A stretch of 64,000 nt of DNA from Chitinophaga sp. 180180018-3. GTDB taxonomy: Bacteria; Bacteroidota; Bacteroidia; Chitinophagales; Chitinophagaceae. Shown piece by piece: positions 37,823 through 56,221 of the stretch (position 1 is its first letter; every line of letters begins with the position of its first letter). Where the stretch lies: assembly GCF_037893185.1 (NCBI RefSeq), contig NZ_CP140772.1:7618001-7682000 (forward strand). Reading direction: 5' to 3'. The notes under the pieces are model-generated. The model saw only the letters and a list, made by a program, of their open reading frames with translations. It did not search any database and had not been told where the DNA came from. The position numbers were made by a program, and so were the translations under genes.

Positions 37823-38572
37823 TTATTTCCCGGGTAATAATGAAAATTGTATAAATCGGTCGTTTTGGTTACGATTAAGCTCTTTGGGTGAAACTCCAGC
37901 CAGTTTTTTGACGGCTTTGATGAAATGCGACTGATCGGTGAAGTCTTGTTCCGGAAATAGTTTGCCGGCTTTAATGTGCTGAAAAGAAGCCCGGAACAAG
38001 AGGATCATGCAATATGATTTCAGCGAAAGACCGTACTGCCGGCTGAAATAGCGATTGATCTGGCGGCTGCTCCAAAATACTTTTTCAGAAAGCGCTTTCA
38101 CGGTCATCGCCCCGTTGGTGGAGTAGATCAGCTGAAAGAGCGTGCGCTTGCGCTCGTCCATTGAAGCAGGTAATAGTGTTGTTATTTTCTGAGACGCCTT
38201 CCGGCAAAAAAGATCAAAATCATGGAGGTCTGTTGCTGTAAATCCCCAGAAGTCCGCAGGCAGATCCAGCGCACTGTCTACTATACCGGCAACACTTTGA
38301 TGAAGTATATACTCAGTTGCCAGCAGGTTGAAGCTGATAGCAAATGTGAGTGTTTGTGGCGCTATAGTTGCGCGTGTTGGTAGGGTTCCTAACCCAATTA
38401 TGGTTACATGAAAAGACTCGGTTCCTGAGCTGGAAAAGAACAGATCGATTCTGCCATCCGGCAGCAGGATCACTTCCTTTTCTTCATCGGAAGCATTATG
38501 CAGCATCCAGTAACTTTCAACAAAGTCGGATAAGGCCGCAGTTGGTTTTATATTTTTTGTGATCAAAGCCAT
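37823..38572 (-). CDS. AraC family transcriptional regulator
   Basis: 249 residues. The N-terminus (YWMLHNASDEEKEVILLPDGRIDLFF) is the DUF6597-type sensing domain common in Bacteroidota AraC proteins. The C-terminal helix-turn-helix contains VFWSSRQINRYFSRQYGLS and DFTDQSHFIKAVKKLAGVSPKEL. It lies first in a block with the TetX-like gene, spaced about 26 bases from its ATG. Confidence 0.9.
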   Translation of the reverse strand: MALITKNIKPTAALSDFVESYWMLHNASDEEKEVILLPDGRIDLFFSSSGTESFHVTIIGLGTLPTRATIAPQTLTFAISFNLLATEYILHQSVAGIVDSALDLPADFWGFTATDLHDFDLFCRKASQKITTLLPASMDERKRTLFQLIYSTNGAMTVKALSEKVFWSSRQINRYFSRQYGLSLKSYCMILLFRASFQHIKAGKLFPEQDFTDQSHFIKAVKKLAGVSPKELNRNQNDRFIQFSLLPGK

Positions 38573-39838: not shown

Positions 39839-39970
39839 GAATTACGAATTAAAAATTACGAATTACGAAATAGCGGGGAGATTTTAGCGGATAATAAATA
39901 GTATTATCAATCGCCAAGATCTCCCCGCTATTTCGTAATTCGTAATTTTTAATTCGTAATTCTTTACTTC
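39832..39970. repeat. Large inverted repeat spanning two convergent gene ends
   Basis: The left arm (39832-39882) and right arm (39919-39970) are complementary over about 51 bases with one single-base indel; weaker similarity extends inward. The arms contain repeated ATTACGAATT units and a GC-rich part, TAGCGGGGAGAT. The stop codons of both convergent genes lie within the arms. It can form a very long cruciform or RNA stem and may terminate transcription in both directions. No transposase is associated. Confidence 0.9.
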
Positions 39971-40875
39971 TTCAGCCAGCCCTTATCCTTCATCCAGTAC
40001 AGGCAACGGCCAAACCATTCATCGAATGGCGGGTTACCTAAAAAACCATGCTCCCCTCTTTCGTAAATGTGTATAGCGGCGGGTATTTTATTGCGGTGCA
40101 ATGCTCCGTAAAACTGCAGGCTGTTTTCTACCGGCACAACCGTATCATCAGTTGCATGAACCAGGAACGTAGTAGGCGTTGCAGCTGTTACCTGCAGCTC
40201 ATTGGAAAACAACCTGACCTGATCAGGAGAAGGCGTTGCGCCAAGCAGATTGTTCCGCGATCCGATGTGCCCGATGCTATCTGAAAAGCTGACAACAGGA
40301 TATACCAACACCATGAAATCCGGACGTAGACTGATGCCTGCAGGATTATTGATGTAAGCATGTGAGAAATGTGTTCCTGCTGTAGATGCCAGATGGCCTC
40401 CGGCGGAGAAGCCCATGATACCAATCCGCGCGGGGTTAACATGCCAGCGGGCAGCCTGACTGCGTACGGTAAGAATTGCCTGTTGCGCATCCTGCAGCGG
40501 CCCTATGGAAGGATCCCGCATGGTGTGCGGATCCGGCATCCGGTATTTGAGCACAAATGCGGTTACTCCCATTTTGTTGAATGCCTTTGCTATTTTTTCA
40601 CCTTCCATTTTGATGCAGAGAACATGGTAACCGCCACCCGGACAAATGATCACAGCGGTACCATTGGCCTTGCCTGCCGGTGGCTGATAAACGGTAAGTG
40701 TGGGCCGGGATACTTTCGATACTACGGTATCCACTACTTTATCGGGCCGGCGCTGTTCCTCGTCCGGCGCACCTGTGGCATTGGGAATGCTATCAGGGTA
40801 AAGCGGGAACTGCTGTTGTGCATAGCTGGCCATTGCTGTTAAGCAGATGAGCAGTGTCAGGCATTTTTTCTTCAT
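39964..40875 (-). CDS. Secreted alpha/beta-hydrolase esterase (acetyl xylan esterase-like)
   Basis: 303 residues with a signal peptide ending near SYAQ. The oxyanion segment CPGGGYHVL, nucleophile motif GFSAGGH, acid region HATDDTVVP and a His in YERGEHGF fit the BD-FAE / acetyl-esterase type. Likely removes acetyl or similar acyl groups from a glycan in the periplasm. It is the last gene of the minus-strand carbohydrate operon, starting nine bases after the GH78 gene. Confidence 0.85.
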   Translation of the reverse strand: MKKKCLTLLICLTAMASYAQQQFPLYPDSIPNATGAPDEEQRRPDKVVDTVVSKVSRPTLTVYQPPAGKANGTAVIICPGGGYHVLCIKMEGEKIAKAFNKMGVTAFVLKYRMPDPHTMRDPSIGPLQDAQQAILTVRSQAARWHVNPARIGIMGFSAGGHLASTAGTHFSHAYINNPAGISLRPDFMVLVYPVVSFSDSIGHIGSRNNLLGATPSPDQVRLFSNELQVTAATPTTFLVHATDDTVVPVENSLQFYGALHRNKIPAAIHIYERGEHGFLGNPPFDEWFGRCLYWMKDKGWLKK

Positions 40876-40884
40876 ATCCTTTAT

Positions 40885-43251
40885 TTAGAAATTGATCTGT
40901 TGACTTCCCTCATGCAACGCTACTTCTCTGCCACGCCAGCTGAACCTGCCGGTGAGGCCCGGTGGGAGCGTTACCACCCCACTGATCCCCCGTTCATTTT
41001 TTCGTTTAAGCGATACCGTTATACTGCCTGCGGGATGTGGCAGGCTGCCGTTGATCGTGGTAAGCGCTCCTGGTGCAGGTGCTATCAACACCCGCCGGAA
41101 CCCCGGCGCATCGGGCATGATGCCGCAGATGGTTGCAAGAAAATCGTAGTTCGGACTGGATGCCCAGGCATGGCAATCTGAACGGGTCGGCTCCGGCTTT
41201 TCTGCAAAAGTGGTAAGACCCAATGCGAGCATGTCGCGCCACGGCCCCAGCTGACTGTAATATACATCGGCCATACCTGCCTGCTTCAGTGCCTGCGTCA
41301 GGTAGAAACGATAGTAGAAAGTAGCCTGGCTCAGACTTTTATCTGTCAACACTTTGTCGAGCACGCTGTGTATCTGGCTGCCGGATATTGCCCCGCTGAG
41401 CACGCCCATGATGTTGGCATGCTGACTATAACTCTTCTTCGACGGCGCATCTGCGAAAATGCCTTTGCCCTGATCAAAGCAAAGCTGATAGGTATGCTGG
41501 TTGAGCGATGCCGCCAGCTGGCGCCAGTGAGCGGCGTTTTCTTTTTGTCCGAAATAGTCTGCCAACTGTGCTGCCTGCGCTAACGTAAACGCATAATGGA
41601 GCGTACGGATAGCGCTGTTGTTTTCCTGACCATTACTGAAGTTGTCGAGGCCGGGCAGCCAATCTATAAAGCTCCACCAGCTCAACGGTCCCAGCATACC
41701 GGTGGCAGAATCTATGCCTCGCTCGTGCCAGTCCAGCACGTCTTTTACGGCCGACATGAACTGTCGCAGAAAAGCGTCGTCCTGGCGTTGCATCCAGTAG
41801 TCATGTATCATCGTGACCCAGAACAGCGAGAAGGTAGGAATTACCTGCAGCCTGTTGCTCGGGTATCTGCCCTGTGGCTGGCCATCTGGTGTACGGGAAT
41901 GGTAGAAGTCGAGCAACGCCTTGCGCATCAACCGGTCGTCGCCACTGGTATAAAGTGAAATGAGCGATTGTATGCGGGTATCTCCTTCGTATTGCAGCTG
42001 CTCGTAATAGGGGCAGTCGAAATAAGTTTCTCCTGCGCATAGCTGTGCGGTGCGCCAGCCAGTTTCCCATATCTGCCGCAGACTGCTGTCGTTGCAACTG
42101 AACGATGCTTTCAGCTGCAGCGGATATCCGGTGCGCATACCATAGAGGTCTGTAATTTCCAGCGGTTCGGTGCCAGTACTGATCTCCAGCTCCAGGTACC
42201 GGTAAGTCCGGAACCACAGCGGGCGGAATGTCCGGTTGCTCCCGCCATCGGGTTGAAAAATATCGTAGTTGCCGAGTATCTCCTTGCCTTCAATGCTGCT
42301 GCGGTTACCTTTCTGTCCGTCTTTATCAAACAGCGCTTCTGCATAAGTGAGTTTTATAACTGCATCTTTGCCCCGGCTGGTATGCAATTCCGGATAGGCT
42401 ACGGTATTGAAGGTCTGATCCAGGAGGATGCGCAGGTGGCTGTTGGCAGGGATGCTCAGTGGTGCTGCGCCGGTCAGGAATGCGGGGCTAACCGGTTGGC
42501 TCGAACGCCTGATCACCTGTATACGCTGCTGTGTTTCTTCAAAAAGCGGAATGTTGCGGGGAGCGAGCGTCCAGTAGTTGTCGGTGCCATAGCCCACGGG
42601 TGTGGTACCGGTACCAACCGGAACGGCTGCCGCCCAGGCATCGTCTTTATATTCCGGCTGTTCCCAGCCCCAGGGATAGCTGTTGCCCTGCACGGCATCT
42701 CCCGGGCCTGTTACAATGTAGGCATGCAACCGGGCGCCGTTATCGGTAGAGCAGGGCGTGTAGGCGCTGTCGTGCAGCACCTTCCAGCCGTTGCCGGTAT
42801 TCACAGCATATTCTTTTTCGGTATCTCCCTGTAGCAGGAAACCGGTACTGTTGGAGACCTGCGCTACAGGGGCCAGTGTACCCATATTCCAGACGAGGGC
42901 GGCAATGGTATTGTTGCCCTGTTTGAGATAAGGGGCAATATCGATGCTTTCGAAATACCAGTTGTAGAGGTCGCCCCGGGCAGGGCCGCTGCACACCGGC
43001 TTACCATTTACGAACAAACGGTAACGGTTATCCGCAGTGACGTGTACAATGAAATGTGCCGGTTTAGCTTCCAGCGAAAACGCCTTCCTGAAGTGGTATA
43101 CGCCATAATCCCGGGCGGGTGCGCCAGGACAGGTGATCCAGGTTGCCGGCCACATGCCATGCAGCAGCCGTGTATTTACAGGAACCGACTGGGCTGCAAG
43201 CTGTAATATAGCCAGCAGCCCTGCCATGAATAGAATGAAAGTTTTTTTCAT
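40885..43251 (-). CDS. Alpha-L-rhamnosidase-like glycoside hydrolase (GH78)
   Basis: 788 residues with a signal peptide ending near QLAAQ. The N-terminal beta-sandwich has WPATWITCP, HVTADNRYRLFVNG and APYLKQGNNTIAALVW. The (alpha/alpha)6 domain contains FDCPYYEQLQYEGDTR, the counterpart of the GH78 acid/base region, and SDCHAWASSPNYDFL near the C-terminus. It should release terminal L-rhamnose from glycosides. The ATG at 43251 is used; another at 43260 overlaps the SusD gene end. The exact sugar needs biochemical proof. Confidence 0.85.
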   Translation of the reverse strand: MKKTFILFMAGLLAILQLAAQSVPVNTRLLHGMWPATWITCPGAPARDYGVYHFRKAFSLEAKPAHFIVHVTADNRYRLFVNGKPVCSGPARGDLYNWYFESIDIAPYLKQGNNTIAALVWNMGTLAPVAQVSNSTGFLLQGDTEKEYAVNTGNGWKVLHDSAYTPCSTDNGARLHAYIVTGPGDAVQGNSYPWGWEQPEYKDDAWAAAVPVGTGTTPVGYGTDNYWTLAPRNIPLFEETQQRIQVIRRSSQPVSPAFLTGAAPLSIPANSHLRILLDQTFNTVAYPELHTSRGKDAVIKLTYAEALFDKDGQKGNRSSIEGKEILGNYDIFQPDGGSNRTFRPLWFRTYRYLELEISTGTEPLEITDLYGMRTGYPLQLKASFSCNDSSLRQIWETGWRTAQLCAGETYFDCPYYEQLQYEGDTRIQSLISLYTSGDDRLMRKALLDFYHSRTPDGQPQGRYPSNRLQVIPTFSLFWVTMIHDYWMQRQDDAFLRQFMSAVKDVLDWHERGIDSATGMLGPLSWWSFIDWLPGLDNFSNGQENNSAIRTLHYAFTLAQAAQLADYFGQKENAAHWRQLAASLNQHTYQLCFDQGKGIFADAPSKKSYSQHANIMGVLSGAISGSQIHSVLDKVLTDKSLSQATFYYRFYLTQALKQAGMADVYYSQLGPWRDMLALGLTTFAEKPEPTRSDCHAWASSPNYDFLATICGIMPDAPGFRRVLIAPAPGALTTINGSLPHPAGSITVSLKRKNERGISGVVTLPPGLTGRFSWRGREVALHEGSQQINF

Positions 43252-43253
43252 GA

Positions 43254-44909
43254 TTACCATCCGGGATTCTGTTCAAGTTTTTTATTCTTGCTGATCTCAT
43301 CAAACGGGATCGGCATAAAATACATTTTTTCTGAGAATACCGCATCCTGTGGGTCTACAGGATGGACAGCATAAGTAAAGCCTCCACCTGCCTGTTTGGT
43401 GATCACCATGCCATTGCCCCGCTTGCCACTAAGCGTGCCCACGGCCGTTTTCCAGCGGCGAAGATCCCAATAACGCTGATTTTCAAAACAAAACTCCACA
43501 TACCGTTCGTTCCTGATAAGATCCCGCATGCTGCTTTTATCAAGGCTGCCTGCCGGGATATCGTTCTGGATACCAGCCCGCCGTCTGACTGCATTCACGG
43601 CAGCGTATACACTAACATCGGGGGCAGTCTGGGATTCGTTTTGCGCTTCGGCGTAATTCAGCAGCACTTCTGCATAACGTATTTCCAGCCAGGGCTGCAC
43701 ACTGCCATAGCCCCAGGTATAGATGGTGTTGGATTGATCTACCATCTTCAGTGTATAATAACCGGTAATGGTATTGTATACCTGTCCGGATGCAACGGAA
43801 TCATAATCGCGTCCTCCTTTGTAAATCAGCAGGGTGATTTCTGTCAGCGCGCCGTTCAGCATTCCTCTGCGTTTGGCGCCGTTATAACCTATATCCGCGT
43901 AGAAACGGTCGTCTCTGCCAACATAAGGATCAGCCGCATTATAACCACTCCCCTGCTCCATGATGCGTTTGCCGTTTTTCATCGGAAAGGCATTGATTAA
44001 CTCCTGCAGAGGGGCAACATGGCCCGCATCTCCATTGGCAATTACCAGCGGCGTTACCATAGCGTCCCAGCCATGGTATTTTTCGGGCATTTTATATTGT
44101 ACTTCAAATATGGGTTCTTTGTTACCGGAAGACATGTCCTGCCACAGCTGTTTCAAATCCGGATACAGGGCGTACATATTCATGTCCATCACAGCTTTTC
44201 CTGCATCAGCAGCCTGTTTCCAGAGGGTAGCATCATTTTTCTCGTTGTAAAGCGGACTGGCCTGATATAGCAGCGCCCTTGATTTCAACGCCAATGCGGC
44301 ACCTTTCCCAGCTTTTCCCCTGATAACATTGGCCGGCAGGTCGGCTGCGGCTGCATCCAGCTCAGATGAGATAAATGCAAAACATTCGGTAAGGCTGTTA
44401 CGGCCTACCTGCAAATCTTCGTTCAGCGACTGTGGTTTGGTAATCAGCGGTACGGCGCCATATCTCTTTACTAAATTAAAATACTGGAAAGCCCTCAGGA
44501 AGCGGACTTCCGCCTTCAGTCGTTTGCGGGTGCCATCGTCGATAGTAGCCGCATCTATCTTTGAAAGGAATTCATTAGCCTTCCGGATGCTGGCGTAAAG
44601 ATTGCCCCACACGTCCATCGGATTGTTGGTGGCGTCCCAGTCGCCCCGTAATATCTGCCACGCAACTTCGCTCGGATAGTCGGTTCTGGCTTCATCTGTG
44701 GCGTCTGTTGTAGCAATGTACAGGTTGCGGCTCCATCCCAGCAGGTCGTTGTAGATGCCGTTTACGATCAGCTCTGTCAGCCCGGCATCATGCAGGGCTT
44801 CATCAGGTGCGATGGAGTCCGGATTGCGCGGGTCGAGGAAATCCTTGTTACAGGCTGCCCCGGCCAGTAACACTAACAGGTATATATAAATGAAATGATA
44901 ACGTTTCAT
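43254..44909 (-). CDS. SusD/RagB family nutrient-binding lipoprotein
   Basis: 551 residues with lipobox LAGAAC near residue 20 and CNKDFLDP after the Cys, a frequent SusD start. SusD signatures include FLRAFQYFNLVKRYG, ALALKSRALLYQASPLY, WLEIRYAEVLLNYAEAQNE and the C-terminal FEN-RYWDLRRW. It caps the SusC channel on the cell surface and binds the glycan. It is 11 bases downstream of susC. Confidence 0.95.
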   Translation of the reverse strand: MKRYHFIYIYLLVLLAGAACNKDFLDPRNPDSIAPDEALHDAGLTELIVNGIYNDLLGWSRNLYIATTDATDEARTDYPSEVAWQILRGDWDATNNPMDVWGNLYASIRKANEFLSKIDAATIDDGTRKRLKAEVRFLRAFQYFNLVKRYGAVPLITKPQSLNEDLQVGRNSLTECFAFISSELDAAAADLPANVIRGKAGKGAALALKSRALLYQASPLYNEKNDATLWKQAADAGKAVMDMNMYALYPDLKQLWQDMSSGNKEPIFEVQYKMPEKYHGWDAMVTPLVIANGDAGHVAPLQELINAFPMKNGKRIMEQGSGYNAADPYVGRDDRFYADIGYNGAKRRGMLNGALTEITLLIYKGGRDYDSVASGQVYNTITGYYTLKMVDQSNTIYTWGYGSVQPWLEIRYAEVLLNYAEAQNESQTAPDVSVYAAVNAVRRRAGIQNDIPAGSLDKSSMRDLIRNERYVEFCFENQRYWDLRRWKTAVGTLSGKRGNGMVITKQAGGGFTYAVHPVDPQDAVFSEKMYFMPIPFDEISKNKKLEQNPGW

Positions 44910-44920
44910 GTGTAACTGAT

Positions 44921-47900
44921 TTAGAAAGTAAGATCAATGCCTGCATTAAAGTTTTTCTGTTGCGGATAATAGCCGCCTGCACCTCTTGTCACTGCTTCAG
45001 GATCAAACTCTTTCAGCTGGCTCCAGGTAAAAAGATTAAATGCAGATACGTATAGCCTTAACCGTTGTATACCGCTTCCTTTGAGCAGGGTGTTGGCGAA
45101 ATTGTATCCCAGGTCTATCGATTTAAGACGGGCATAGCCGGCTTTGCGCAGCCAGAGGTCTGAATCGCGGTTATTCATAGAACGGCCGCCTATCCATGCC
45201 AGCGGAAATCTGGCGTTGGGATTTTGTGATGTCCAGCTGTCAGTGAAATAGGCGAAGCTGTTACCCTCGCTGTTTGTGAACATGGTCCGGGCATCTCCCT
45301 GCAACATGAAAGTGCGCAGTGCGGCGCCCTGTATCAGGAAGTGCAGATCGAAACCTTTGTAACTGCAGCCTGCGGCCAGGCCGTACATAATGCGTGGGGT
45401 ATTGCCATAGTTGGAAAGTACTTCCTGATCCTGCGCATCTATTTTCCCGTCATGATTAACATCGGCATATTTGATATCACCAGCCAGTGAATGTTGTCCG
45501 AACTGGGATCCACCGAACCAATCCTCTGCTTCTTTCTGGCTTTTAAAAATGCCCAATGCATGATAACCTGCTACAAACCCGAGCGGCCTGCCCAATTGTT
45601 TCTGGAAATCAAGGGCATTGGCAGGATCATCTATCTGTGTCACTTTATTAGTGGCAAAACTACCAGAGAGGCGTATGTCGTAAGTGACTGCACCGATGTT
45701 GTTGCGATGGTAAAGACTTAACTCCATACCGTGGCTTTTCATCTGGGCATAATTTTCTGCAGGAAGACTGCGGCCAAATGTAGCGGGTACTGACCTTACC
45801 CGGCTCCAGAGGATATCTTTGGTAGACCGGGAGAAGTAATCGAATTCAATGCCCAGCAGGCCTTTCCAGAGTTCTGCGTCGAGCCCGATGTTATTGTTGT
45901 CCTGTTTTTCCCAGGTAATACCGGTATTCGGATATACGCCGTAATTCAGGGCTGATGCGGCTTTGCCGTCCATGATGGGACCACTGCTGGTATTGATGTT
46001 GTAAATGTCCTGGAACTGGAAAGCATCTACCCGGTCGTTACCTATAACGCCTTTGGATACACGTAGTTTCAGGCTATTCACAAATTGTAATGCTGCGGCA
46101 TTTTTAAAGAAGGATTCTTCTGATATGCGCCATCCGGCTGATACTGCCGGGAAGAAGCCGAAGCGATGATTACGCGGGAAGCGGTACGATCCGTCGTAGC
46201 GGAAAGAACCTTCCAGCAGGTATTTGTCGTGATAGGCGTAATTCACACGTCCCACAAGGCTGCGGCGGGCATCTTTCAGCAGGCTGGTACCGGTCACACT
46301 CTGGTTAGCCGGACCGCTGTAGTACAGTTCATCCCTCAGTGTATTCGGAAAGTCGGCTTTGGTGGCCTGCAGGTTATCGCCCTGGATACCATATTGTTCA
46401 TATAACAGTAACGCCCCTACGGAATGTTTGTTGAAGGCACCTGCATAATTGAGAGAAATGTTATAGGTGGTAGTAGTCAGCGGAGTATAGGTTTCGGTAA
46501 GAGATGCCGGAGAACCAACTGCTTTTACGCCGGTAACATTGCCCTGGTTGTCTTCATTGTACAACAGGTAAGGGGTGGCAAAATACTTATCGAAAAGATG
46601 ATCCTTTATCACGGCAGCAGTACCTTTCAGCGAGAGTCCTTTGGTGATGAAGGGAAGCTGCTGATCGAAGAAGATGGTACCGGCATATTGGTTGTCGGTG
46701 GTGTGGCGGTAGCCGGAACCGTTTACAATCTGTACCGGATGCGGGCCGTTGGCATTGTACGGATGGCCACTGGGCGTATAGGCCGGCACATCGGGCCTTG
46801 TACGCAGCGCTTCCGCGAAGATGAAGAATTCATCGAAACCAGGTGTGGAGGTCAGTCCCTGTTCGCCCGACAGGTTAAGGCCTATTGTGAGTGTTTTCGT
46901 AATATCCGCATCCATATTGGCGCGCAGGTTATAGCGCTGATAGCTGATATGGTTGTACATACCTTCCTGATCGGTATAGCCCAATGAAGCATAGTAACGA
47001 ATGGCCCCGTTGCCGCCGTTAACAGAGAGGTTATGTTTGGTTTGCGGGCTGTTCTGCCGGAACGTTTCCTTATACCAGTTGGTGCCGGTTTTACCGGATT
47101 TAAAATCTGCCAGTTCTGCATCGGTGAAAACCGGAGAGCTGCCCTGGTTCTGAAGGGCCTGGTTACGGTATACCGCATATTCGTACGGACTCATGATCCG
47201 CGGATAACCGGTAGGACGCTGTATACCGGCCATACCGGAATAATTGATCACGGGCTTGCCTTTATGACCGCGTTTGGTAGTAATAAGAAAGACGCCATTA
47301 GCAGCGCGTGCGCCATATACAGCCGCTGCGGAGGCATCTTTCAATACGGAGAAACTTTCCACATCAGCAGGATCGATGTCGTCCATGGTATTACGAACGA
47401 TGCCATCTACCACGATGAGCGGGGAGTTATCGTTCAGCGTGCTGACGCCCCTGATCTGCAGTATGGAGCCGCTACCGGGCTTTCCGCTGGGGTTGGTGGC
47501 AATCACACCCGGAAGGCGGCCGGCGATACTGTTGGTGATATTGGCTACCGGCTGTTTTTCCAGCTCTTTGCCATTAATAGTGGCAACAGAACCGGTCAGG
47601 TTTACTCTTTTCTGCGTGCCGTACCCAACTACCACTACTTCACCGAGTGCAGTGGATGCTTCTTCCAGTGAAACATCGATCACGGTTCTGCCATCGCAGC
47701 GGATTTCACGCGGCGCATAACCGATGGCACTAAAGGTGAGCAGACTTTCCTTTCCGGGAACGGACAATGTGTAACGTCCGTCGGTGCCGGTATTCATACC
47801 GGTTTGAGAACCTTTTACCATTACGGTAACTCCCGGGATGGGATTGTTTTTGTCGTCTTTCACAACACCTGAAACGGTCAGTGATTGTGCGTGAGTGGTT

Positions 47901-47992
47901 GGTGCATACAGCTGCAACAGACAGGTTAGTAGCAGCGAAAGGAGCAATTGGAGTGCGTGCGGGCATGATGCCCGACTGGAGATTCTGGTCAT
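44921..47992 (-). CDS. SusC/RagA family TonB-linked outer-membrane transporter
   Basis: About 1023 residues from the ATG at 47992; an in-frame ATG at 48055 adds 21 residues and is possible. The signal peptide is followed by a carboxypeptidase-D-like domain (TVSGVVKDDKNNPIPG), a plug domain (VVVVGYGTQKR, GRLPGV, IRGVSTLNDNSPLIVVDG) and a 22-stranded barrel ending in aromatic FNAGIDLTF. It imports the oligosaccharide bound by SusD with energy from TonB. Start choice rests on the signal peptide; three copies of ACCAGAATC straddle it. Confidence 0.93.
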   Translation of the reverse strand: MTRISSRASCPHALQLLLSLLLTCLLQLYAPTTHAQSLTVSGVVKDDKNNPIPGVTVMVKGSQTGMNTGTDGRYTLSVPGKESLLTFSAIGYAPREIRCDGRTVIDVSLEEASTALGEVVVVGYGTQKRVNLTGSVATINGKELEKQPVANITNSIAGRLPGVIATNPSGKPGSGSILQIRGVSTLNDNSPLIVVDGIVRNTMDDIDPADVESFSVLKDASAAAVYGARAANGVFLITTKRGHKGKPVINYSGMAGIQRPTGYPRIMSPYEYAVYRNQALQNQGSSPVFTDAELADFKSGKTGTNWYKETFRQNSPQTKHNLSVNGGNGAIRYYASLGYTDQEGMYNHISYQRYNLRANMDADITKTLTIGLNLSGEQGLTSTPGFDEFFIFAEALRTRPDVPAYTPSGHPYNANGPHPVQIVNGSGYRHTTDNQYAGTIFFDQQLPFITKGLSLKGTAAVIKDHLFDKYFATPYLLYNEDNQGNVTGVKAVGSPASLTETYTPLTTTTYNISLNYAGAFNKHSVGALLLYEQYGIQGDNLQATKADFPNTLRDELYYSGPANQSVTGTSLLKDARRSLVGRVNYAYHDKYLLEGSFRYDGSYRFPRNHRFGFFPAVSAGWRISEESFFKNAAALQFVNSLKLRVSKGVIGNDRVDAFQFQDIYNINTSSGPIMDGKAASALNYGVYPNTGITWEKQDNNNIGLDAELWKGLLGIEFDYFSRSTKDILWSRVRSVPATFGRSLPAENYAQMKSHGMELSLYHRNNIGAVTYDIRLSGSFATNKVTQIDDPANALDFQKQLGRPLGFVAGYHALGIFKSQKEAEDWFGGSQFGQHSLAGDIKYADVNHDGKIDAQDQEVLSNYGNTPRIMYGLAAGCSYKGFDLHFLIQGAALRTFMLQGDARTMFTNSEGNSFAYFTDSWTSQNPNARFPLAWIGGRSMNNRDSDLWLRKAGYARLKSIDLGYNFANTLLKGSGIQRLRLYVSAFNLFTWSQLKEFDPEAVTRGAGGYYPQQKNFNAGIDLTF

Positions 47993-48003
47993 GACTGAAT
48001 AAT

Positions 48004-48038
48004 TGATTCTGGTGGTGGATAAATGATTCTGGTGGTGG
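48004..48038. repeat. Direct repeat in the SusC leader
   Basis: TGATTCTGGTGGTGG occurs at 48004-48018 and 48024-48038, exactly 20 bp apart. A shorter copy, GATTCTGGT, lies at 47981-47989 within the first codons. It may be a regulatory element, or a slippage product near the alternative starts. Confidence 0.6.
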
Positions 48039-48078
48039 TGGCGAAGTGTGAACATTCATCGTTTGCCGGCGCTGTTGA

Positions 48079-48936
48079 TCAGAGCCGGTAAATTCTTACA
48101 GCATTCTCATGGAATAAGCCTGTCAGTTCTTTTGGTGTACATGTTGAGAGTGCCTGTAGTAAAGCTTCGAGCCATTGACGGTAAGTGCCGGCCAGCAACA
48201 GCACGGGCCAGTCGCTGCCGAACAGCAAACGTTCAGGGCCGAAGCAACTAAAGGCGTGGTGGATATATGGCGCCAGTATCTCCGGTGTCCAGCCTGTATG
48301 TGCGGCTTCTGTGATCAGCCCGGATAATTTGGCGCAAAGATTCGGGAATGCAGCCAGTTTGTCTGCGTTTCTTTTGAAGTCGTCCAGTCTGTTGTTCCTG
48401 ATATCCGGTTTGCCAAGGTGGTCCAGTATAAACGGCGTATCCGGGCAGGCGGCTATCATGTTGATGGTATGTGGTATGGCATGCGGCTTTACACTGATAT
48501 CGAGAGAAAGATGATATTCCGGCAGCAGTTGCAACGCATCGAGGTAACCGGTGCTGCAACATAGCCGGGGATCATCGTCATACATTCTCCTGATGCCTTT
48601 TACCAGCGGGTTGCCGGTGAGTTCGTGCAGCATCGTAGCTACTGCCCTGCCCTGTTCCAGTGGTGCATAGGCAACGATGCCACGGATACGATCGTCGGCC
48701 TGCGCCTGTTGCATTACCAGTTCAATTTCCTGTAAGCATTGATCAGGGCGGCATTCGGCCTGCACGAATACCATACCGCTGATGGGAACGCCGGCGGTTG
48801 CCTGTTGATAATCTGTTATGAGATATGGCCGGTGTATCCCGGGAAACTCCTCCAGCCATGGATATTCCAGCCGGAGGGGATCCCAGAGATGTAGATGTGT
48901 ATCAATAACGGGAATGGCGGTCAGGAGATGGTTCAT
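48079..48936 (-). CDS. Amidohydrolase, sugar-lactonase type (L-fucono/L-rhamnono-lactonase-like)
   Basis: 285 residues, TIM barrel of the COG3618 amidohydrolase group. Metal motif [10 protein letters not shown] at the N-terminus, [19 protein letters not shown] and LLFGSDWP match lactonases that open L-fucono-, L-rhamnono- or galactaro-lactones. In a sugar-oxidation pathway it would hydrolyse the lactone formed by the dehydrogenase. It overlaps the dehydratase gene by ATGA, so the two are translationally coupled. Confidence 0.87.
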
Positions 48937-50672
48937 GTCTTGGCTGTTTTGTATTGTGATGCCAGCTTGCGCAACCAGGATAGTTCGTCTGTTACACAGC
49001 CCTCGGTAGCAGATGAAACCGTGAGGCTGTATTTATACAATACCCCCTTTTGATATTTGAGCGCAGGTGGCTGCCAGGCCGATCTGCGGCGGGCAATTTC
49101 CTCGTCTGTTAAACTAACTTCAATACTGTTGTTCACGGTGTTGATGGTGATCTTGTCGCCGTTTTGCAACAGGGCAATCAGTCCGCCATCGTATGCTTCC
49201 GGTGTAATATGGCCAATTACAAAACCATGCGTGCCACCGGAGAAACGGCCATCGGTAACCACTGCTACATCTTTGCCCAGGCCTGCTCCCATGAGGGTGG
49301 CCGTGGCTTTCAGCATTTCGGGCATACCAGGGCCGCCGCGTGGGCCTTCGTAACGGATCACCACTACATCGCCCGGAACTACCTGTTGTTGTTCTATGGC
49401 TGCGATGGCGGCAAACTCTCCGTCGAATACCTTGGCCGGGCCCTCAAAAAATTCTCCTTCTTTTCCTGTGATCTTCGCTACGGCTCCTTCCGGGGCGAGG
49501 TTCCCATACAGGATCTGCAGGTGCCCATTGGGCTTCAGTGGCTGGGAAATCGGGTGTAATATGCCCCTGGCAGGATCTGCGGGAGGAACCTCCTGCAGGT
49601 TTTCAACGAGTGTTTTACCGGTCACCGTCAGGCAGTTGCCGTCCAGGAAACCTGCTTCCAGCAACGTTTTCATGATGGCTGGTATACCTCCTGCCTGGTG
49701 TACATCTTCCATGAGATATTTTCCGCTGGGTTTCAGATCGGCCAACAGCGGGGTGCTGTTACTGATTCGCTGAAAATCGTCGAGTCCCAGTGCTATGTCT
49801 GCCGCCCTTGCGATGGCGATAAGATGAAGCACCGCATTGGTAGAGCCTCCCAGCGCCATTGTTAGCGTGATGGCGTTTTCGAAGGAGGCTTTTGTGAGAA
49901 TATCTTTTGGCTTAATATCCTTCTCCAGCAAGCGATATAATGCCTGTCCAACCTCCAGGCATTCTTTTTCTTTTTCCTTGCTCAGTGCCGGATTGGAAGA
50001 GCTGTATGGCAAGCAAAGTCCCAACGCCTCTATGGCGGCCGACATGGTATTGGCGGTATACATGCCGCCACAAGCGCCGGCGCCGGGGCAGGCATTGCGG
50101 ATGATGCCCTCAAAATCGGCAGATGATAATTTACCGGCCAGCTTCTCCCCATAGGCCTCCAGCGTTGAAAGCACGTTGATTTTTTTGTCTTTGTAAATAC
50201 CAGACCCGATGGTGCCTCCGTATACCATGATGGCAGGGCGGTTCAGCCGGCACATGGCCATAACGGCGCCGGGCATATTTTTATCACAGCCCATAATGGT
50301 GATCAGTCCATCATACCACTGAGCATTGACGATGGTTTCAATTGAATCTGCGATGATGTCGCGTGAGGGCAGCGAGAAACGCATGCCTGCCGTGCCCATG
50401 GTGAGTGCGTCGCTTACTCCGATGGTGTTAAAGATCAGTCCTACCATACCCGCATCGGTAACGCCCTGCTTTACTATCGCGGCAAGCGCATTGAGATGAA
50501 GATTACAAGGGTTTCCTTCAAAACCCGCGCTGGCAATGCCTGTCTGGGGTTTGTTAAGATCTTCCGGTGTGAGGCCAGCCCCATGAAGCATGGCCCTGGA
50601 AGAAGGTTGACTGATGTTCTGCGTAAGCACACTGCTATACCTGTTTAACCGATTATCCATACATTGTTGCAT
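48933..50672 (-). CDS. IlvD/Edd family dehydratase, probably acting on a sugar acid
   Basis: 579 residues. Iron-sulfur and catalytic motifs are intact: [58 protein letters not shown] and [17 protein letters not shown]. The sequence looks closest to dihydroxy-acid dehydratase (IlvD) of branched-chain synthesis, yet no ilv gene is nearby and it is coupled to a sugar lactonase, so dehydration of an aldonate to a 2-keto-3-deoxy acid is the likely job. An ATG four codons in (50660) is an alternative start. Confidence 0.88.
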
Positions 50673-50743
50673 TTGAAAAATTAGAGCAAAGAAATCCCAG
50701 GCACCTGCGGGTGCAGTTGCTTACCTGTTGTTCTCCGTAAAAA

Positions 50744-51829
50744 TTATATCTGATGTTGAATCGTCGTACCGCCTGCATCGCTGGAAGCATAGGCCGCTTC
50801 CACCAGCTGCATGGTCTTGTATGCGCTGTCTATATGGTTGACCAATATTGATGACGTTCCTTCTGCGTAGCACATGAGATTGGCCATGGATGCAAGAAAC
50901 GCATCCGGCATCCAGGTGCCGTTTAACTGCACCGGCTTCCACTCCGGTGGCTTGCCGTTTTCCAGCAGCACGTATTCAAAAGTATCCGGCACACCGTGAG
51001 GATAATCGATGTTCAGGCCCAGCGTGGTGATGATGGCGCCTTTGGTGCCTTCCCATTTAATGAACGAATCCTGGTGCTTCAGGCCAAATTCATGACCGTG
51101 GTTGGTATTGATGAAAGCCCTTACCGCATCATTGTAATCCAGTATGATCACTGAGCGGGTAGATGCAAGCTGCATCATTTTGGGGTGTTGCACCGTTTTA
51201 GCATAGATGCTGTCCGGCTCTCCCAGGAAATAGCGCAGCAGATCCATGTAGTGGATGCTGTGATACAGCATTTCCATGCGCGGGATACCAAAGAGGAATT
51301 CCCACAGATGCCACGGGTGATAGATGTTCATGCGGATCTCCATATCGTGGAGGGTACCTATCAGGCCCTGGCTGATGATATCTTTGGCGGCGGCAACAGC
51401 AGGGATGAAACGCATCTGGAAATTTACGGCAGCAATAAACTGTTTTTGACGGCAAAGCTGCATGATGTTGTCGGCCGCCGGCAGGGTTTCTCCCATTGGC
51501 TTCTGCATCAATACTACCGCTTTCTGCGGCAGTTGTTCCAGTATGGAGGGCAGTACCGAAGCTGGTACGGCAATATCGAAAATAACGTCCGTGGGTACGT
51601 TTGCTATCAGTTCGGCAGTATTGTTATATACACGTGGAATATTGAATTGCGTAGCCAGCTGCTGCGCTTTTTCCAGGGCAGGATCGCAGATGGCTACTAT
51701 CTCCCAGCCGGCTTTGCGGTAGGCCGGCAGATGTGCCCCTTCTACAATGCCGCCTGCACCGATAATGGCGATAGGTCGTGGATGCACAGGAAGCTGAGGT
51801 TGATAGTTGATCGTGATATCTGCTTGCAT
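50744..51829 (-). CDS. Gfo/Idh/MocA family oxidoreductase
   Basis: 361 residues. Rossmann motif IGAGGIVEGAH, VAICDP, then VLMQKPMGETL where the family usually has EKP (Glu to Gln, Lys kept), and the Gfo/Idh C-terminal sheet with HSIHYMDLLRYFLGE. In this operon it is the best candidate for the sugar dehydrogenase that makes the lactone. It is the first gene of the minus arm, transcribed from the control region shared with the AraC regulator. Confidence 0.88.
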   Translation of the reverse strand: MQADITINYQPQLPVHPRPIAIIGAGGIVEGAHLPAYRKAGWEIVAICDPALEKAQQLATQFNIPRVYNNTAELIANVPTDVIFDIAVPASVLPSILEQLPQKAVVLMQKPMGETLPAADNIMQLCRQKQFIAAVNFQMRFIPAVAAAKDIISQGLIGTLHDMEIRMNIYHPWHLWEFLFGIPRMEMLYHSIHYMDLLRYFLGEPDSIYAKTVQHPKMMQLASTRSVIILDYNDAVRAFINTNHGHEFGLKHQDSFIKWEGTKGAIITTLGLNIDYPHGVPDTFEYVLLENGKPPEWKPVQLNGTWMPDAFLASMANLMCYAEGTSSILVNHIDSAYKTMQLVEAAYASSDAGGTTIQHQI

Positions 51830-51894
51830 GAATCAAATTTCTTCCAAAATAACTGATCAAACCAACACTTTAAGAGACATTACCTGCACTATTT

Positions 51895-51962
51895 TGACCA
51901 TTTTTGGGAATTAGCAGGCCAAATAGATTATATTAGTGCTATAGCCCGACCAAAAACGGTCA
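51895..51962. promoter_or_regulatory. Divergent overlapping promoters with inverted 13-mers
   Basis: TGACCATTTTTGG (51895-51907) and CCAAAAACGGTCA (51950-51962) are inverted copies with one mismatch. Each holds a TTTG that could be the -33 element: rightward 51903-51906 with TATATTAG (51929-51936), spacer 22; leftward 51954-51951 with TCTATTTG (51927-51920), spacer 23. The two promoters overlap back to back. The 13-mers are likely binding sites of the AraC regulator encoded on the right. Confidence 0.6.
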
Positions 51963-51963
51963 T

Positions 51964-52842
51964 ATGAAAGCGATTTTACAAAAGGTACCGGTTTCAACAG
52001 ATGCGTCGTTCGCCGTTCAGGTGTTCTGTTCTCCTTATTTCGATACGCCCTGGCATTTTCATCCGGAGTGTGAGCTGGTGTTGGTGCTGAAGGGAGATGG
52101 GAAACGCTTTGTGGGCGACAGTATTACGGATTTTGTTCCGGGAGATTTGGTATTGCTGGGTTCCAACCTGCCGCATTGGTACAGGAACGGTGCTGCTTAT
52201 TACGCCAATGATCCTTCGCTGGAAGCGAAATCGCTCGTGATCCAGTTCAACAGGGAGTTCCTGGGCAGCAGCTTTTTCGGATTGCCTGAAACAGCAGGGA
52301 TTAAAAAACTACTCGACAGATCCAGGCAGGGCATCTGTATCACCGGCCGTACCCGTGAAGTAGTAGCAGGGAAAATGCATCAGATTGTAGACAGCGACGG
52401 AATGGACCGCCTGCTGCAGTTATTGTCGATATTGCATGTGGTGGCCGGCTCGGCCGACTGCCGCCTGCTTTCCAGTCAGGGTGCCACGGGGATTAACGTA
52501 AAGGATTCCGAGCGCGTCAACCGGATTTATGAATTTGTAATGCGGCATTTCACAGATCCGATTTCCACCAATGAAGTGTCGAATGCCATTAATATGAGCC
52601 CTTCTGCATTCTGCCGTTATTTTAAAAAACGTACGCGCAAGAATTTTACACATTTTCTGAATGAGTTACGAATAGGACATGCCTGTAAGCTATTGCAGGA
52701 AGAAGATCTCAGCGTAACGGAAATCTGTTTTATGAGTGGTTATAACAGCATTTCTTATTTCAACCGTCAGTTCAAGAATTTTAAAAAGAAAACTCCACAG
52801 GCGTTCAAGCAGGAGTATATGCAACGAAAGAGTTTTGTGTAA
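51964..52842 (+). CDS. AraC family regulator with cupin sensing domain
   Basis: 292 residues. The N-terminal cupin (PWHFHPECELVLVLKGDGKR, then VPGDLVLLGSNLPHWY) is typical of sugar-responsive AraC proteins. The C-terminal helix-turn-helix pair contains INMSPSAFCRYFKKRT and CFMSGYNSISYFNRQFK. The ATG lies one base after the right inverted 13-mer. It is divergent from the sugar operon and so probably controls both directions. Confidence 0.92.
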   Translation: MKAILQKVPVSTDASFAVQVFCSPYFDTPWHFHPECELVLVLKGDGKRFVGDSITDFVPGDLVLLGSNLPHWYRNGAAYYANDPSLEAKSLVIQFNREFLGSSFFGLPETAGIKKLLDRSRQGICITGRTREVVAGKMHQIVDSDGMDRLLQLLSILHVVAGSADCRLLSSQGATGINVKDSERVNRIYEFVMRHFTDPISTNEVSNAINMSPSAFCRYFKKRTRKNFTHFLNELRIGHACKLLQEEDLSVTEICFMSGYNSISYFNRQFKNFKKKTPQAFKQEYMQRKSFV

Positions 52843-52883
52843 ACGCTGGTGGAAAATTGTTCCCGGAAATTAAGATGATCATT

Positions 52884-54404
52884 ATGAAAAACATTTTCCT
52901 ATTTACCTTCCTCGTTATGCACATGGCATTTACACAAGCCCAACATCAGGTTAACCAGAGAAAAACTGCAAATGGTATTGTTGAAGGCACGGTAGAAAAA
53001 AGTGGTATCCTTTCTTTCAAAGGTATTCCTTACGCGGCGCCGCCCGTGGGCGATCTGCGATGGAAAGCGCCACAGCCGGCAAGCAACTGGGATGGCGTTC
53101 GAAAGGCTGCCAGCTTCGGACCCCGTGCCATGCAGCCACCTATTTTCGGGGATATGGTGTTTCGCTCAGATGGGATGAGCGAGGATTGTCTTTACCTCAA
53201 CGTATGGACCCCTGCAAAGAAAGCGGCGGAGCGCCTTCCGGTGCTGGTGTATTTTTATGGCGGCGGCCTTGTTGCCGGCGATGGTTCTGAACCGCGCTAC
53301 GATGGAGAAAATATGGCGAGGAAAGGAATTGTTACACTGACGGTGAATTACCGGCTCGGCGTTTTCGGCTTTCTCTCGCATCCCGGGCTGACTGCTGAAT
53401 CTCCGGTGCATGCCTCCGGGAATTACGGTTTCCTGGATCAGGCAGCGGCCTTGAAATGGGTGTGGGAAAACATCGCTGCGTTTGGCGGTGATCCGGAGCG
53501 CGTCACCATTGCAGGAGAATCGGCGGGTTCGATATCCGTTAGTGCATTGATGGCATCTCCCCTTTCCCGGACGCTGATAGCCGGTGCGATCGGAGAAAGT
53601 GGTTCTTTGCTTGGCACGCTGCCGGCAGTGCCGCTGAGCAATGGCGAAAGCACTGGTAAACAGTTTGCAGAAAGTGTGAACGCCTCATCCCTTACCGATT
53701 TACGGGCGCTTCCGGCAGAGAAGATATTGGAAGCTGCCACTAAGTTCGGGCCGTTCCGCATTTCCCCGGTGATAGATGGATACTTCCTGCCTGAAAGCGT
53801 GTATAACATCTACGCTGCGGGAAAACAATCGCATGTTCCCCTGCTTGCAGGCTGGAATTCGGAAGAGTCGAACTATCGCGGCATACTGGAAAATCAGCCG
53901 CCCACGAAAGAGAATTTTGCGAAGGCAGTGCAACGCCTGTACGGAGAAAAAGCAGCACAGGTGCTGGAAACCTATCAGGCAGCCACAGATGCCGCAGTAG
54001 AGAAGGTGGCCGGCGACCTGGCCAGCGATCGCTTTATCGGTTTCAGTACCTGGAAGTGGATAGATCAACAGGCAAAGACCAATACCAAACCGGTGTATCG
54101 CTACCTTTATTCCCGTCCCCGCCCCGGAGCAAAAGGTGCGGTGCATTCAGCAGAAATAGAATATGCTTTGGGTAATCTTGCCACCAACAAAGTATTTGCC
54201 TGGACACCTGACGACTATAAAGTGTCGGCCATCTTACAGGATTATTTCGCCAATTTCATCAAAAAAGGAAATCCAAATGGAAAGGGATTGCCGGAGTGGC
54301 CTGCTATTCAAGGGGAAGATGTACCCGTGATGAATATTGATGTGAAGACGCAAATGCAGAAAGAGCTGTTTCGGAAAAGATATGTATTACTGGATGGTTT
54401 TTAG
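52884..54404 (+). CDS. Secreted type-B carboxylesterase
   Basis: 506 residues from the ATG at 52884 (other ATG 52875). The signal peptide ends near TQAQ. Family features: GIPYAAPPVGDLRW, SEDCLYLNVW, the oxyanion VYFYGGGL, nucleophile motif GESAGS, and a C-terminal His region near GAVHSAEIEYALGN. It hydrolyses carboxylic esters in the periplasm. It follows the AraC gene by about 40 bases on the same strand and is probably part of the glycan locus, removing ester groups. Confidence 0.92.
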   Translation: MKNIFLFTFLVMHMAFTQAQHQVNQRKTANGIVEGTVEKSGILSFKGIPYAAPPVGDLRWKAPQPASNWDGVRKAASFGPRAMQPPIFGDMVFRSDGMSEDCLYLNVWTPAKKAAERLPVLVYFYGGGLVAGDGSEPRYDGENMARKGIVTLTVNYRLGVFGFLSHPGLTAESPVHASGNYGFLDQAAALKWVWENIAAFGGDPERVTIAGESAGSISVSALMASPLSRTLIAGAIGESGSLLGTLPAVPLSNGESTGKQFAESVNASSLTDLRALPAEKILEAATKFGPFRISPVIDGYFLPESVYNIYAAGKQSHVPLLAGWNSEESNYRGILENQPPTKENFAKAVQRLYGEKAAQVLETYQAATDAAVEKVAGDLASDRFIGFSTWKWIDQQAKTNTKPVYRYLYSRPRPGAKGAVHSAEIEYALGNLATNKVFAWTPDDYKVSAILQDYFANFIKKGNPNGKGLPEWPAIQGEDVPVMNIDVKTQMQKELFRKRYVLLDGF

Positions 54405-54658: not shown

Positions 54659-56203
54659 TTAGTATCCTGGGTTTTTCTTCAGGTTCGGATTAACGGCCAG
54701 CTGTTGGCTGGGTATGGCAAACAGCAGATATTTAGGATCGTCTGTTGGTTTTTCCTGCCAGGGCTGTAAGAATTTTCCAAAGCGGATCAGGTCAGATCGT
54801 CTGCTGCATTCCCAGTAAAACTCACGTCCTCTTTCATCCAGCAGCTGATCCAGGGTTACACTGGCCCATGGAGCAACGTTGCGGGCAACACGTAGGATGT
54901 TTACCGGAACGAGTGCGCCGGCGGTATTTCCCTGGCGGAGTAATGCTTCAGCTTTCATGAGCAATACATCAGAATAGCGGTAATACACAAAGTCATTCTC
55001 AACTTTTCCATTACCATCGTTCACATAATCAGGGCAGTATTTAACTACCCGGATACCTGTAACCTCCAGGTTGGCACCGGTTTCAATGCTGTGTACTTCC
55101 GGGATGAATATCAATGGTGCACCTGTTCTGTCGGTTAAAGCCGCATTGGTTGTCAGATCATATTGCTGACCAATCAGGAATCCGACATTGATTCGTTTAC
55201 CAGGGTTACCGGGTCCGTTAGTAGTATAAGCTGCTCCGCGTCTTACATCTGCAGCTTCAAACTTGTTGTAGAAGTCGGAAAGTGTGGCCCAGCCATTCCA
55301 TCCTGCAGGATTTTGGTTGTAGTGCATTACAGTATGCCAAACAGAGCGTATGTCGCCTGCGTCCACACCGCCGATGTTTTCAGCAGTGAAGATATTCTCT
55401 TTCGAAATAGCGCCATTGTTTGGTGCAAAGTTGTCGAAGTAATTTGCACTGAAACTGTATCTGCCACTGGTGATGATAGCATCAGCCAGCTCCACAACTT
55501 TTGCCATATCCGCAGCATTGAAGGTAGGAGTAGCCCGGTTGGCGATCACTCCCTTATTCAGATAGCATTTCATCAGCAACATTCTCGCTGCATCCTGATT
55601 GGCCTTGGTGATATTGTGTTTATCTGCAGCCACATCAGGAAGATCATTCATCACTGCAGTCACTTCAGACATAATGTAGTCCAGGGCTTCTGCTCCGGTT
55701 CTTACTTTCGCCGGTACTGTTACTTTTTCTCCCGGCTCCCTGTATGGTACCTGGTTAAAGAGATCCAGCATACTGAACATGGCAAAGGCTCTCAGAAACC
55801 TGGCTTCTGCTGCCTGCTGTTTGGAAGGGCTGAACTGAAGAATGTTAGTAGCGGTATATACTACACCTCCAAGGTTGTTGAAAGCATCACGGATATGGAT
55901 ATTGTCGCCATCCCACTGGTGTGAGTGCAATACGCGCCATACGCCGTTATCATCCCAGTCGCCGCCCCTGGTAGGAGCTATCTGCTCGTCGGTACTCATT
56001 TCAGACAGTGCAAATACCTGATCATTATTCTGATATGGCAAGCGCATCGAATTATATACACCTTTCAGCAGGGCGTCTGCTGATCCGCCGCTACCGCCCA
56101 CCTGTTCTGTGGTTGCCTCTCCCTGGAGTTTTTCATCCAGCTTGGTACAGGCTGAAATCAACAGTATGCCGGTGAGTAGAAAATATTTTGTTACGTGGTT
56201 CAT
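54659..56203 (-). CDS. SusD/RagB family nutrient-binding lipoprotein
   Basis: 514 residues with lipobox ISAC and CTKLDEKLQG after it. SusD patterns include ARFLRAFAMFSMLDLFNQVPY, ARMLLMKCYLNKG, YYRYSDVLLMKAEALLRQGN and the C-terminal REFYWECSRRSDLIRFGKF. Expected to bind a glycan or other polymer fragment at the surface. It follows its susC by 18 bases. No enzyme gene adjoins, so the substrate is unknown. Confidence 0.94.
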   Translation of the reverse strand: MNHVTKYFLLTGILLISACTKLDEKLQGEATTEQVGGSGGSADALLKGVYNSMRLPYQNNDQVFALSEMSTDEQIAPTRGGDWDDNGVWRVLHSHQWDGDNIHIRDAFNNLGGVVYTATNILQFSPSKQQAAEARFLRAFAMFSMLDLFNQVPYREPGEKVTVPAKVRTGAEALDYIMSEVTAVMNDLPDVAADKHNITKANQDAARMLLMKCYLNKGVIANRATPTFNAADMAKVVELADAIITSGRYSFSANYFDNFAPNNGAISKENIFTAENIGGVDAGDIRSVWHTVMHYNQNPAGWNGWATLSDFYNKFEAADVRRGAAYTTNGPGNPGKRINVGFLIGQQYDLTTNAALTDRTGAPLIFIPEVHSIETGANLEVTGIRVVKYCPDYVNDGNGKVENDFVYYRYSDVLLMKAEALLRQGNTAGALVPVNILRVARNVAPWASVTLDQLLDERGREFYWECSRRSDLIRFGKFLQPWQEKPTDDPKYLLFAIPSQQLAVNPNLKKNPGY

Positions 56204-56221
56204 ATAAGCAATGTTTTTGGA

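Follow-up and report, generated by a model that had tools for sequence, protein, structure and literature searches.

In a 64,000-nucleotide stretch of the genome of Chitinophaga sp. 180180018-3 (contig NZ_CP140772.1, positions 7,618,001 to 7,682,000 of the forward strand), referred to here as the window, a polysaccharide utilization locus (PUL) with a rhamnosidase-like enzyme is joined to genes for a putative sugar oxidation series. From gene content and sequence comparison we consider it rather probable that this eight-gene unit, at window positions 39964-52842, carries out aldose oxidation, lactone opening and dehydration by a repurposed dihydroxy-acid dehydratase (DHAD) in a private non-phosphorylative pathway. 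The notable feature of the unit is the DHAD-class enzyme, which was apparently recruited for sugar-acid dehydration. The window genome is a single contig of 8.13 Mb. The features discussed below are as follows, in window coordinates.

50744..51829, minus strand: Gfo/Idh/MocA dehydrogenase, proposed aldose 1-dehydrogenase and first gene of the run (Pfam PF01408, PF22725 and PF02894).
48933..50672, minus strand: DHAD-class IlvD dehydratase, proposed aldonate dehydratase (TIGR00110, 717 bits, cut-off 618).
48079..48936, minus strand: amidohydrolase-family lactonase (PF04909, Amidohydro_2, 144.5 bits).
44921..48055, minus strand: SusC TonB-linked outer-membrane transporter (TIGR04056, 939.5 bits, cut-off 368).
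43254..44909, minus strand: SusD surface glycan-binding lipoprotein (PF07980, 193.7 bits).
40885..43260, minus strand: GH78-like alpha-L-rhamnosidase (PF17389, six-hairpin rhamnosidase domain, 104.4 bits, cut-off 24.5; best match in the Protein Data Bank (PDB), 2okx).
39964..40875, minus strand: PaeX-like esterase, the last gene of the run, whose start is signal-like (NCBIfam PaeX, 258.8 bits, under the cut-off of 550).
51964..52842, plus strand: AraC-family regulator with a cupin domain, divergent from the run (PF12833, PF07883).
51880..51897, minus strand: 18-bp site TCAAAATAGTNNAGGTAA between the divergent genes, a putative AraC operator (the regulator's role is presumed).
52857..54404, plus strand: type-B carboxylesterase, a neighbor outside the unit.

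All nine genes lie where an initial annotation of this DNA had placed them and belong to the families that it had named, and the overlap that it had described between the IlvD and lactonase genes measures 4 bp. From Gfo/Idh to the esterase, the gaps along the minus strand are 71, -4, 23, 11, -7, and 9 bp, and the Gfo/Idh and AraC genes diverge across 134 bp. The adjoining susC and susD genes with their glycan-active enzymes have the composition of a PUL, and the proposal that SusCD, the rhamnosidase, and the esterase share one divergent control region with a dehydrogenase-lactonase-dehydratase series is borne out. By eye, a signal-like N terminus is present on the esterase, GH78, and SusD proteins and absent from Gfo/Idh, IlvD, and the lactonase, which are presumed to be intracellular. 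The 18-bp sequence TCAAAATAGTNNAGGTAA is aligned upstream of Gfo in all five loci that carry the core of the unit (see below) and has a single match in the window, although the same five-locus alignment served both to derive the pattern and to count its conservation. In one of these loci, L095, the longest AraC frame overlaps the site, so that the gap there depends on the AraC start chosen. We regard TCAAAATAGTNNAGGTAA as a candidate operator.

The initial annotation had proposed that relatives be searched for the same gene order. A second copy of the unit, with all eight genes in identical order, was found in the Chitinophaga metagenome-assembled genome (MAG) BIN2 (L095), at identities to the window proteins of 82% for Gfo, 82% for IlvD, 72% for the lactonase, 85% for SusC, 83% for SusD, 77% for GH78, and 75% for the esterase. 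None of its nine flanking open reading frames matches the window. The type-B carboxylesterase is likewise missing beside this copy, the only other full one found, and is therefore ruled out as a member; the locus had initially been extended to position 54404, and only the eight genes at 39964-52842 are retained. A core of AraC, Gfo, IlvD, lactonase, and esterase genes, here called the module, occurs in 5 of the 60 Chitinophaga genomes searched, including that of the window. The four other genomes have IlvD proteins 72-83% identical to that of the window, and in all five loci the AraC, Gfo, lactonase, and PaeX-like esterase homologues were found near IlvD, with AraC and Gfo divergent in each. 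In genome G412, IlvD and Gfo belong to one cluster, IlvD lying ~6 kb upstream and forming a run with genes for SusCD, GH43, and GH78, and in genome G426 the open frame of the module IlvD lacks the last ~45 residues. Three module loci (L148, L149, and L150) are without the window-type GH78 and SusCD genes and are instead adjoined by a different GH78-type gene, which is full in L148 (Pfam), a fragment at the end of its contig in L149, and a shortened frame of 576 residues in L150; rhamnosidase-type genes thus stand at 5 of 5 module loci. A GH43-type gene is also present in L148 and L150, shortened in the latter. By this comparison, SusCD and the window-type GH78 appear as exchangeable parts of the module. 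The repetition of the eight-gene order between unrelated flanks, together with the recurrence of the five-gene core, takes the unit beyond chance, and from these sequences we regard it as a real, mobile-looking PUL-plus-oxidation unit that is patchily distributed. A search of 394 genomes of the family gave no further Gfo with more than 54% identity, so that, within this sample, no other genus was seen to carry the module.

The initial annotation had called the dehydratase an IlvD/Edd enzyme, and this family assignment stands; a placement in the sugar-acid class does not. Beyond exceeding the cut-off of the DHAD equivalog model TIGR00110 (717 bits against 618), the protein falls far under the sugar-acid models (L-arabinonate dehydratase, 401.8 against 882 bits; YjhG/YagF, 221 against 808 bits), and its closest relative in the PDB is a plant DHAD. 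PMC9314677 distinguishes a branched-chain-acid dehydratase (BCADHT) class from a sugar-acid dehydratase (SADHT) class by motifs, with GCDKTT marking the latter and a C-terminal histidine named among its features. The module IlvD has GCDKNM in place of GCDKTT, which together with the model scores rules out a sugar-acid IlvD/Edd enzyme. The window genome has four IlvD/Edd genes, comprising the module copy, a copy in an apparent ilvD-ilvB-ilvN-ilvC run (by inspection), and two copies with the Thr-Thr sugar-acid-type motif that lie near short-chain dehydrogenase/reductase (SDR) genes. Identity of the module protein is 64% with the ilv-operon DHAD and 33-34% with the sugar-acid-type copies. Each of the other four module genomes also has a second DHAD, 63% identical to the query, and because a separate DHAD is thus present in every module genome, the module copy is spare. 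The five module IlvDs are monophyletic among Bacteroidota DHADs (support 1.0), on a stem of 0.25 substitutions per site, and nest in a group of 45 proteins from Chitinophaga and other Bacteroidota (support 0.996). Two further Chitinophaga genomes carry extra second DHAD copies (L151:9103-10803, 63%; L152:9088-10791, 61%) with no Gfo within the 20 kb fetched, each adjoined by a related protein of ~188 residues.

The substrate channel was compared with that of 57 DHADs from fetched loci (28 from the genus, two of which are second copies, and 29 from a search of the phylum), with columns retained where at most one module protein was gapped. In 11 of the 550 columns, corresponding to window-protein positions 24, 89, 127, 141, 168, 171, 372, 471, 486, 540, and 550, the module IlvDs have a fixed residue that occurs in none of the 57 DHADs. 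Position 89 adjoins a magnesium ligand, and position 127 is two residues before an Fe-S cysteine. PMC11528067 gives M102, I177, V178, F181, Y215, L465, V496, and V497 of AthDHAD as inhibitor-contact or entrance residues; these align with window positions 92, 167, 168, 171, 205, 454, 485, and 486. Three of the eight (V178, F181, and V497) are among the 11 module-fixed changes (Fisher p 3.2e-4), each replaced in 5 of 5 module proteins by a residue found in none of the 57 DHADs, and the other five are not module-specific. Phe181 is Phe in 57 of 57 DHADs and Leu in 5 of 5 module IlvDs, and the V178 position is solely Val or Ile among the 57. Such channel changes would look like those expected of a change of substrate, and the dehydratase may be read, at the level of its sequence, as a duplicated DHAD-class enzyme that was apparently repurposed for sugar-acid dehydration.

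Several observations weigh against this reading of the unit. The protein retains the BCADHT-class motifs GCDKNM, GACGG, and SGGT as well as the three Fe-S cysteines and the magnesium ligands (alignment), and its channel changes exchange one hydrophobic residue for another, unlike the polar residues found in the sugar-acid-type copies of the same genome. The p-value is generous, because the five module sequences are related and the eight-residue list was chosen afterwards, being compiled from one paper once variable positions had first been inspected. The unit has no gene for a permease or a terminal enzyme. FtDHAD, a member of the BCADHT class, prefers dihydroxyisovalerate and acts on L-threonate but has virtually no activity with D-gluconate (PMC9314677, section 6). 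Passing the curated DHAD cut-off with its class motifs intact, IlvD might simply be an ordinary second branched-chain DHAD that chances to sit in a PUL, but this is improbable given the Gfo, lactonase, and esterase genes nearby in all five loci, the module-specific channel changes at positions where the 57 DHADs agree (F181) or vary only between Val and Ile (V178), and the presence of another DHAD in each of the five genomes.

The lactonase, which we take to be COG3618-like, has amidohydrolase metal-site-like motifs; its best PDB match is 4dlf and its best NCBIfam model is L-fucono-1,5-lactonase (NF052480), at 126.2 bits under a cut-off of 400. It has a relative in a fucose-like operon at ~762-768 kb of the window genome (L172:5157-11004) that encodes a lactonase, two SDRs, a fumarylacetoacetate (FAA) hydrolase, a RhaM-family mutarotase, and a FucP-like permease. 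This is probably an oxidative fucose operon, and no dehydratase gene was noticed there. In a midpoint-rooted lactonase tree, five module proteins, ten others, and the fucose-like-operon protein form a clade with support 1.0, apart from 35 lactonases of a second type of locus that is marked by CoA-transferases and described below (proteins of 270-310 residues that matched the window lactonase). The tree thereby rules out a grouping of the module lactonase with the CoA-transferase-locus proteins to the exclusion of the fucose-type one. The initial annotation had found the final enzymes and a sugar permease to be missing, and none is encoded in the unit; the fucose-like operon genes are candidates for both functions.

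The Gfo/Idh dehydrogenase leads to a wider set of loci. Its AlphaFold model (pLDDT 91.6) has 5uhw, from Agrobacterium radiobacter, as best Foldseek match, and this is the nearest solved structure by sequence, profile, and fold; the PDB profile search gave nothing at 1e-20 and was repeated at 1e-6. We take 5uhw to be a D-apiose dehydrogenase (ApsD), but it shares 21% identity with the window enzyme, and TM-scores with other Gfo/Idh structures are similar. At E <= 1e-30, the dehydrogenase has matches in 77 of the 394 genomes of the family, spread over 28 of 101 genera (the window genome counted); genomes with no match at this threshold, five candidates per genome being scored as a rule, are called Gfo-negative. 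The relatives are 43-54% identical, barring two at 33-34%, and those of G106 and G307, among the 76 other positive genomes, are broken or partial. Neighborhoods were fetched for 40 of the 76 (L046-L085; L046, L047, L053, and L056 span <20 kb), and their gene families were called on representatives. IlvD was found in none of the 40. Instead, two CaiB-type class III CoA-transferases are present in 37 loci and one in a further locus, with none in the remaining two, which are cut by contig ends. They are accompanied by a MaoC-like hydratase (36 loci), a solute-binding-like protein (35), a distant lactonase (36; in L052, L081, and L082 another solute-binding-type gene occupies its place), and a RhaT-like or FucP-like permease (35). 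In a Gfo tree of 39 of the 40 proteins, leaving out a 230-residue piece in L085, the module clade has support 0.93 and is split from the CoA-transferase type at the base with support 0.543. A Pfam scan of 59 neighbors showed 25 of 65 families, nearly all single-member, and NCBIfam scans of the genes adjoining the cassette mostly gave no sugar-specific name. Locus L068 also encodes a beta-CASP protein (17560-18963) that scores 384 bits against the Cas14 model of type VII CRISPR, under the cut-off of 800.

The glycosidases of these 40 loci, counted by cluster, include an alpha-galacturonidase (1500 bits with its NCBIfam model, presumably GH138) in 22, GH95 in 15, GH106 in 10, GH28 in 10, GH78 in 6, and GH127 in 5. 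Targeted searches for RhaEW, apiosidase, and AptA were made in 60 chosen genomes, namely five with the module, 29 Gfo-positive genomes of the CoA-transferase type, and 26 Gfo-negative genomes. A strong match to the apiosidase family PF13204, which we take to be GH140, was present in 28 of the 29, as compared with 9 of the 26; in 27 of the 29 it shares a contig with Gfo, and in 25 it lies within ~50 kb. This makes the CoA-transferase-type Gfo loci probable rhamnogalacturonan II (RG-II) loci. An AptA-like transketolase of the apulose pathway (49-53% identity), named after the apiose cluster of E. coli SE15 (PMC13001218), occurs in 13 of the 29 and in none of the Gfo-negative or module genomes. 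In one genome, the region immediately upstream of the cassette encodes proteins of the apiose/apulose pathway that resemble AptA, AptB, a sugar-binding protein, a permease, and ApsK (L183:13918-18369, L079:584-3109). This distribution argues that the cassette serves an RG-II sugar other than apiose there, perhaps aceric acid. We infer that the CoA-transferases and MaoC perform the dehydration that IlvD performs in the module. It is a doubtful extension that one chemical step has here received two unrelated answers, with related aldose dehydrogenases feeding either a repurposed DHAD or two CoA-transferases and MaoC acting via a CoA thioester of the sugar acid, and that both would be new routes for an unusual rhamnose-associated sugar.

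The sugar itself is assigned tentatively. L-rhamnose, which the initial annotation had favored, is unproven, as the genome has a rhamnose operon elsewhere and the Gfo relatives often lie in probable RG-II loci, but it is the most likely candidate, if short of an even chance. The unit could then provide a second, oxidative route in addition to that through the isomerase, with the SDR and FAA hydrolase of the fucose-like operon completing the conversion of its keto-deoxy acid, a version that we hold with slightly more reserve still. It is consistent with the GH78-type genes of two different clusters that accompany the module, with the midpoint-rooted grouping of its lactonase with that of the fucose-like operon rather than those of the CoA-transferase loci, and with the SDRs, FAA hydrolase, RhaM-family mutarotase, and FucP-like permease that this operon provides. 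L-rhamnonate is 2R, as is dihydroxyisovalerate, and L-fuconate is 2S. The GH78 motif DCPYYEQLQYEGD at residue 415, whose residues we take to be catalytic, aligns with 2okx (Rhamnosidase B), although the N-terminal domain model scores 20.4 against its cut-off of 25. Homologues of the window-type GH78 at 60-63% identity were found in 14 fetched loci (L153-L166), two of which (L156 and L166, 60-61%) have RhaI-like and kinase genes nearby, with RhaT and RhaEW also in L156; given these neighbors, the window-type GH78 probably is a genuine rhamnosidase. The esterase has the GxSxG motif as GFSAG.

Against an oxidative rhamnose route stands the L-rhamnose operon already present at ~3.555-3.561 Mb, in which RhaT and RhaEW exceed their cut-offs and the RhaI-like isomerase falls short of its own; a kinase-like gene (by inspection) is also present, and a GH106-like gene lies alongside (span ~3.552-3.561 Mb). 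All 34 Gfo-positive genomes sampled have a RhaEW match over the cut-off, as do 18 of the 26 Gfo-negative genomes, so that an extra rhamnose route would not be needed. E. coli-type RhaA is absent from the window genome and found in 1 of 394 family genomes, which fits the use of a RhaI-type enzyme.

The alternative that D-apiose or another sugar accompanying rhamnose is the substrate appears somewhat unlikely even when these sugars are taken together. For a branched sugar, D-apiose is the best case and by itself an outside one. D-apionate corresponds to 2,3-dihydroxyisovalerate whose methyl groups are hydroxylated, and because it shares the tertiary 3-OH, a DHAD would be a natural dehydratase to recruit. 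The nearest Gfo/Idh structure and the enrichment of strong apiosidase matches in CoA-transferase-type genomes point the same way, and RuBisCO-like proteins of A. radiobacter K84 act in D-apiose catabolism (PMC6302742). However, the low identity to 5uhw and the similar TM-scores of other structures argue against D-apiose, and the AptA-like pathway genes indicate that apiose is already served in 13 of the 29 genomes. Among the five module genomes, a strong apiosidase match is confined to G399 and G426, where it is on another contig or ~630 kb from the module; the match in G412 is weak (25 bits), and none was found in G427 or the window genome.

The proposed pathway, by which we return to the repurposed DHAD, differs from each known system that it resembles. 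As in the Watanabe LRA pathway, a deoxyhexose acid would be formed by oxidation and opening of a lactone and then dehydrated, all without a kinase; that pathway uses an SDR dehydrogenase and an enolase-superfamily dehydratase where the module has Gfo/Idh and DHAD-class IlvD enzymes; the cluster does not contain the pair of SDR L-rhamnose 1-dehydrogenase and enolase-superfamily rhamnonate dehydratase, and, unlike the LRA pathway, the locus encodes neither an aldolase nor a keto-acid dehydrogenase. The initial annotation had contrasted its enzyme types with those of known L-rhamnose oxidation, in agreement with PMC9795676. In the Dahms and Weimberg pentonate pathways an [Fe-S] IlvD/EDD enzyme also dehydrates an aldonate, but CcXDHT and RlADHT belong to the sugar-acid class with GCDKTT and the module IlvD to the branched-chain-acid class. 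The D-apiose oxidative pathway likewise begins with an aldose dehydrogenase and a lactonase (D-apiose dehydrogenase and D-apionolactonase), but its next steps as given in PMC11747546 (oxidoisomerase, kinase, and decarboxylase) have no candidate among the unit genes. SusCD, GH78, esterase, and AraC are shared with Bacteroidota SusCD/GH78 PULs; the unit differs in also encoding its own oxidation enzymes for use inside the cell, in genes that precede susC in the run. Among the titles and abstract openings listed from the open-licence literature, no description was found of the combination of DHAD-class IlvD, Gfo, lactonase, SusCD, and GH78, or of the CoA-transferase/MaoC/Gfo cassette in RG-II-type loci.

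From the gene families, their co-inheritance, the DHAD ancestry of the dehydratase, and its channel changes, all of which are present in the sequences, we infer the following catalytic steps, substrate, and regulation. SusCD would capture an acylated, rhamnose-bearing glycan or glycoside, from which the secreted esterase would strip acyl groups and GH78 would free terminal alpha-L-rhamnose. Inside the cell, Gfo/Idh would oxidize C1 of the aldose to give a lactone, the amidohydrolase would open its ring to the aldonate, and the channel-altered DHAD duplicate would convert this to a 2-keto-3-deoxy acid, to be finished by enzymes encoded outside the unit. AraC, at the shared divergent promoter, would switch the unit.

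Outside the unit, two further SusD/SusC-type pairs adjoin it on the minus strand (window 54659-63866) and are not in the second copy; the protein at 61794-63866 has no Pfam match at 0.001 and a 28% BLAST likeness to the L095 SusC. On the other side, at window 35809-38572, an FAD-binding monooxygenase-type gene is flanked by two AraC/DUF6597 regulators.

If the assignment is right, the module IlvD would be a natural case of a branched-chain-acid DHAD that has become a catabolic sugar-acid dehydratase, and window-protein positions 89, 127, 168, 171, and 486 would be candidate specificity residues of the kind sought by engineers of IlvD/EDD enzymes. The module and the CoA-transferase cassette would, if the functions proposed are true, represent catabolic pathways for plant-pectin sugars in Bacteroidota of which we found no description.

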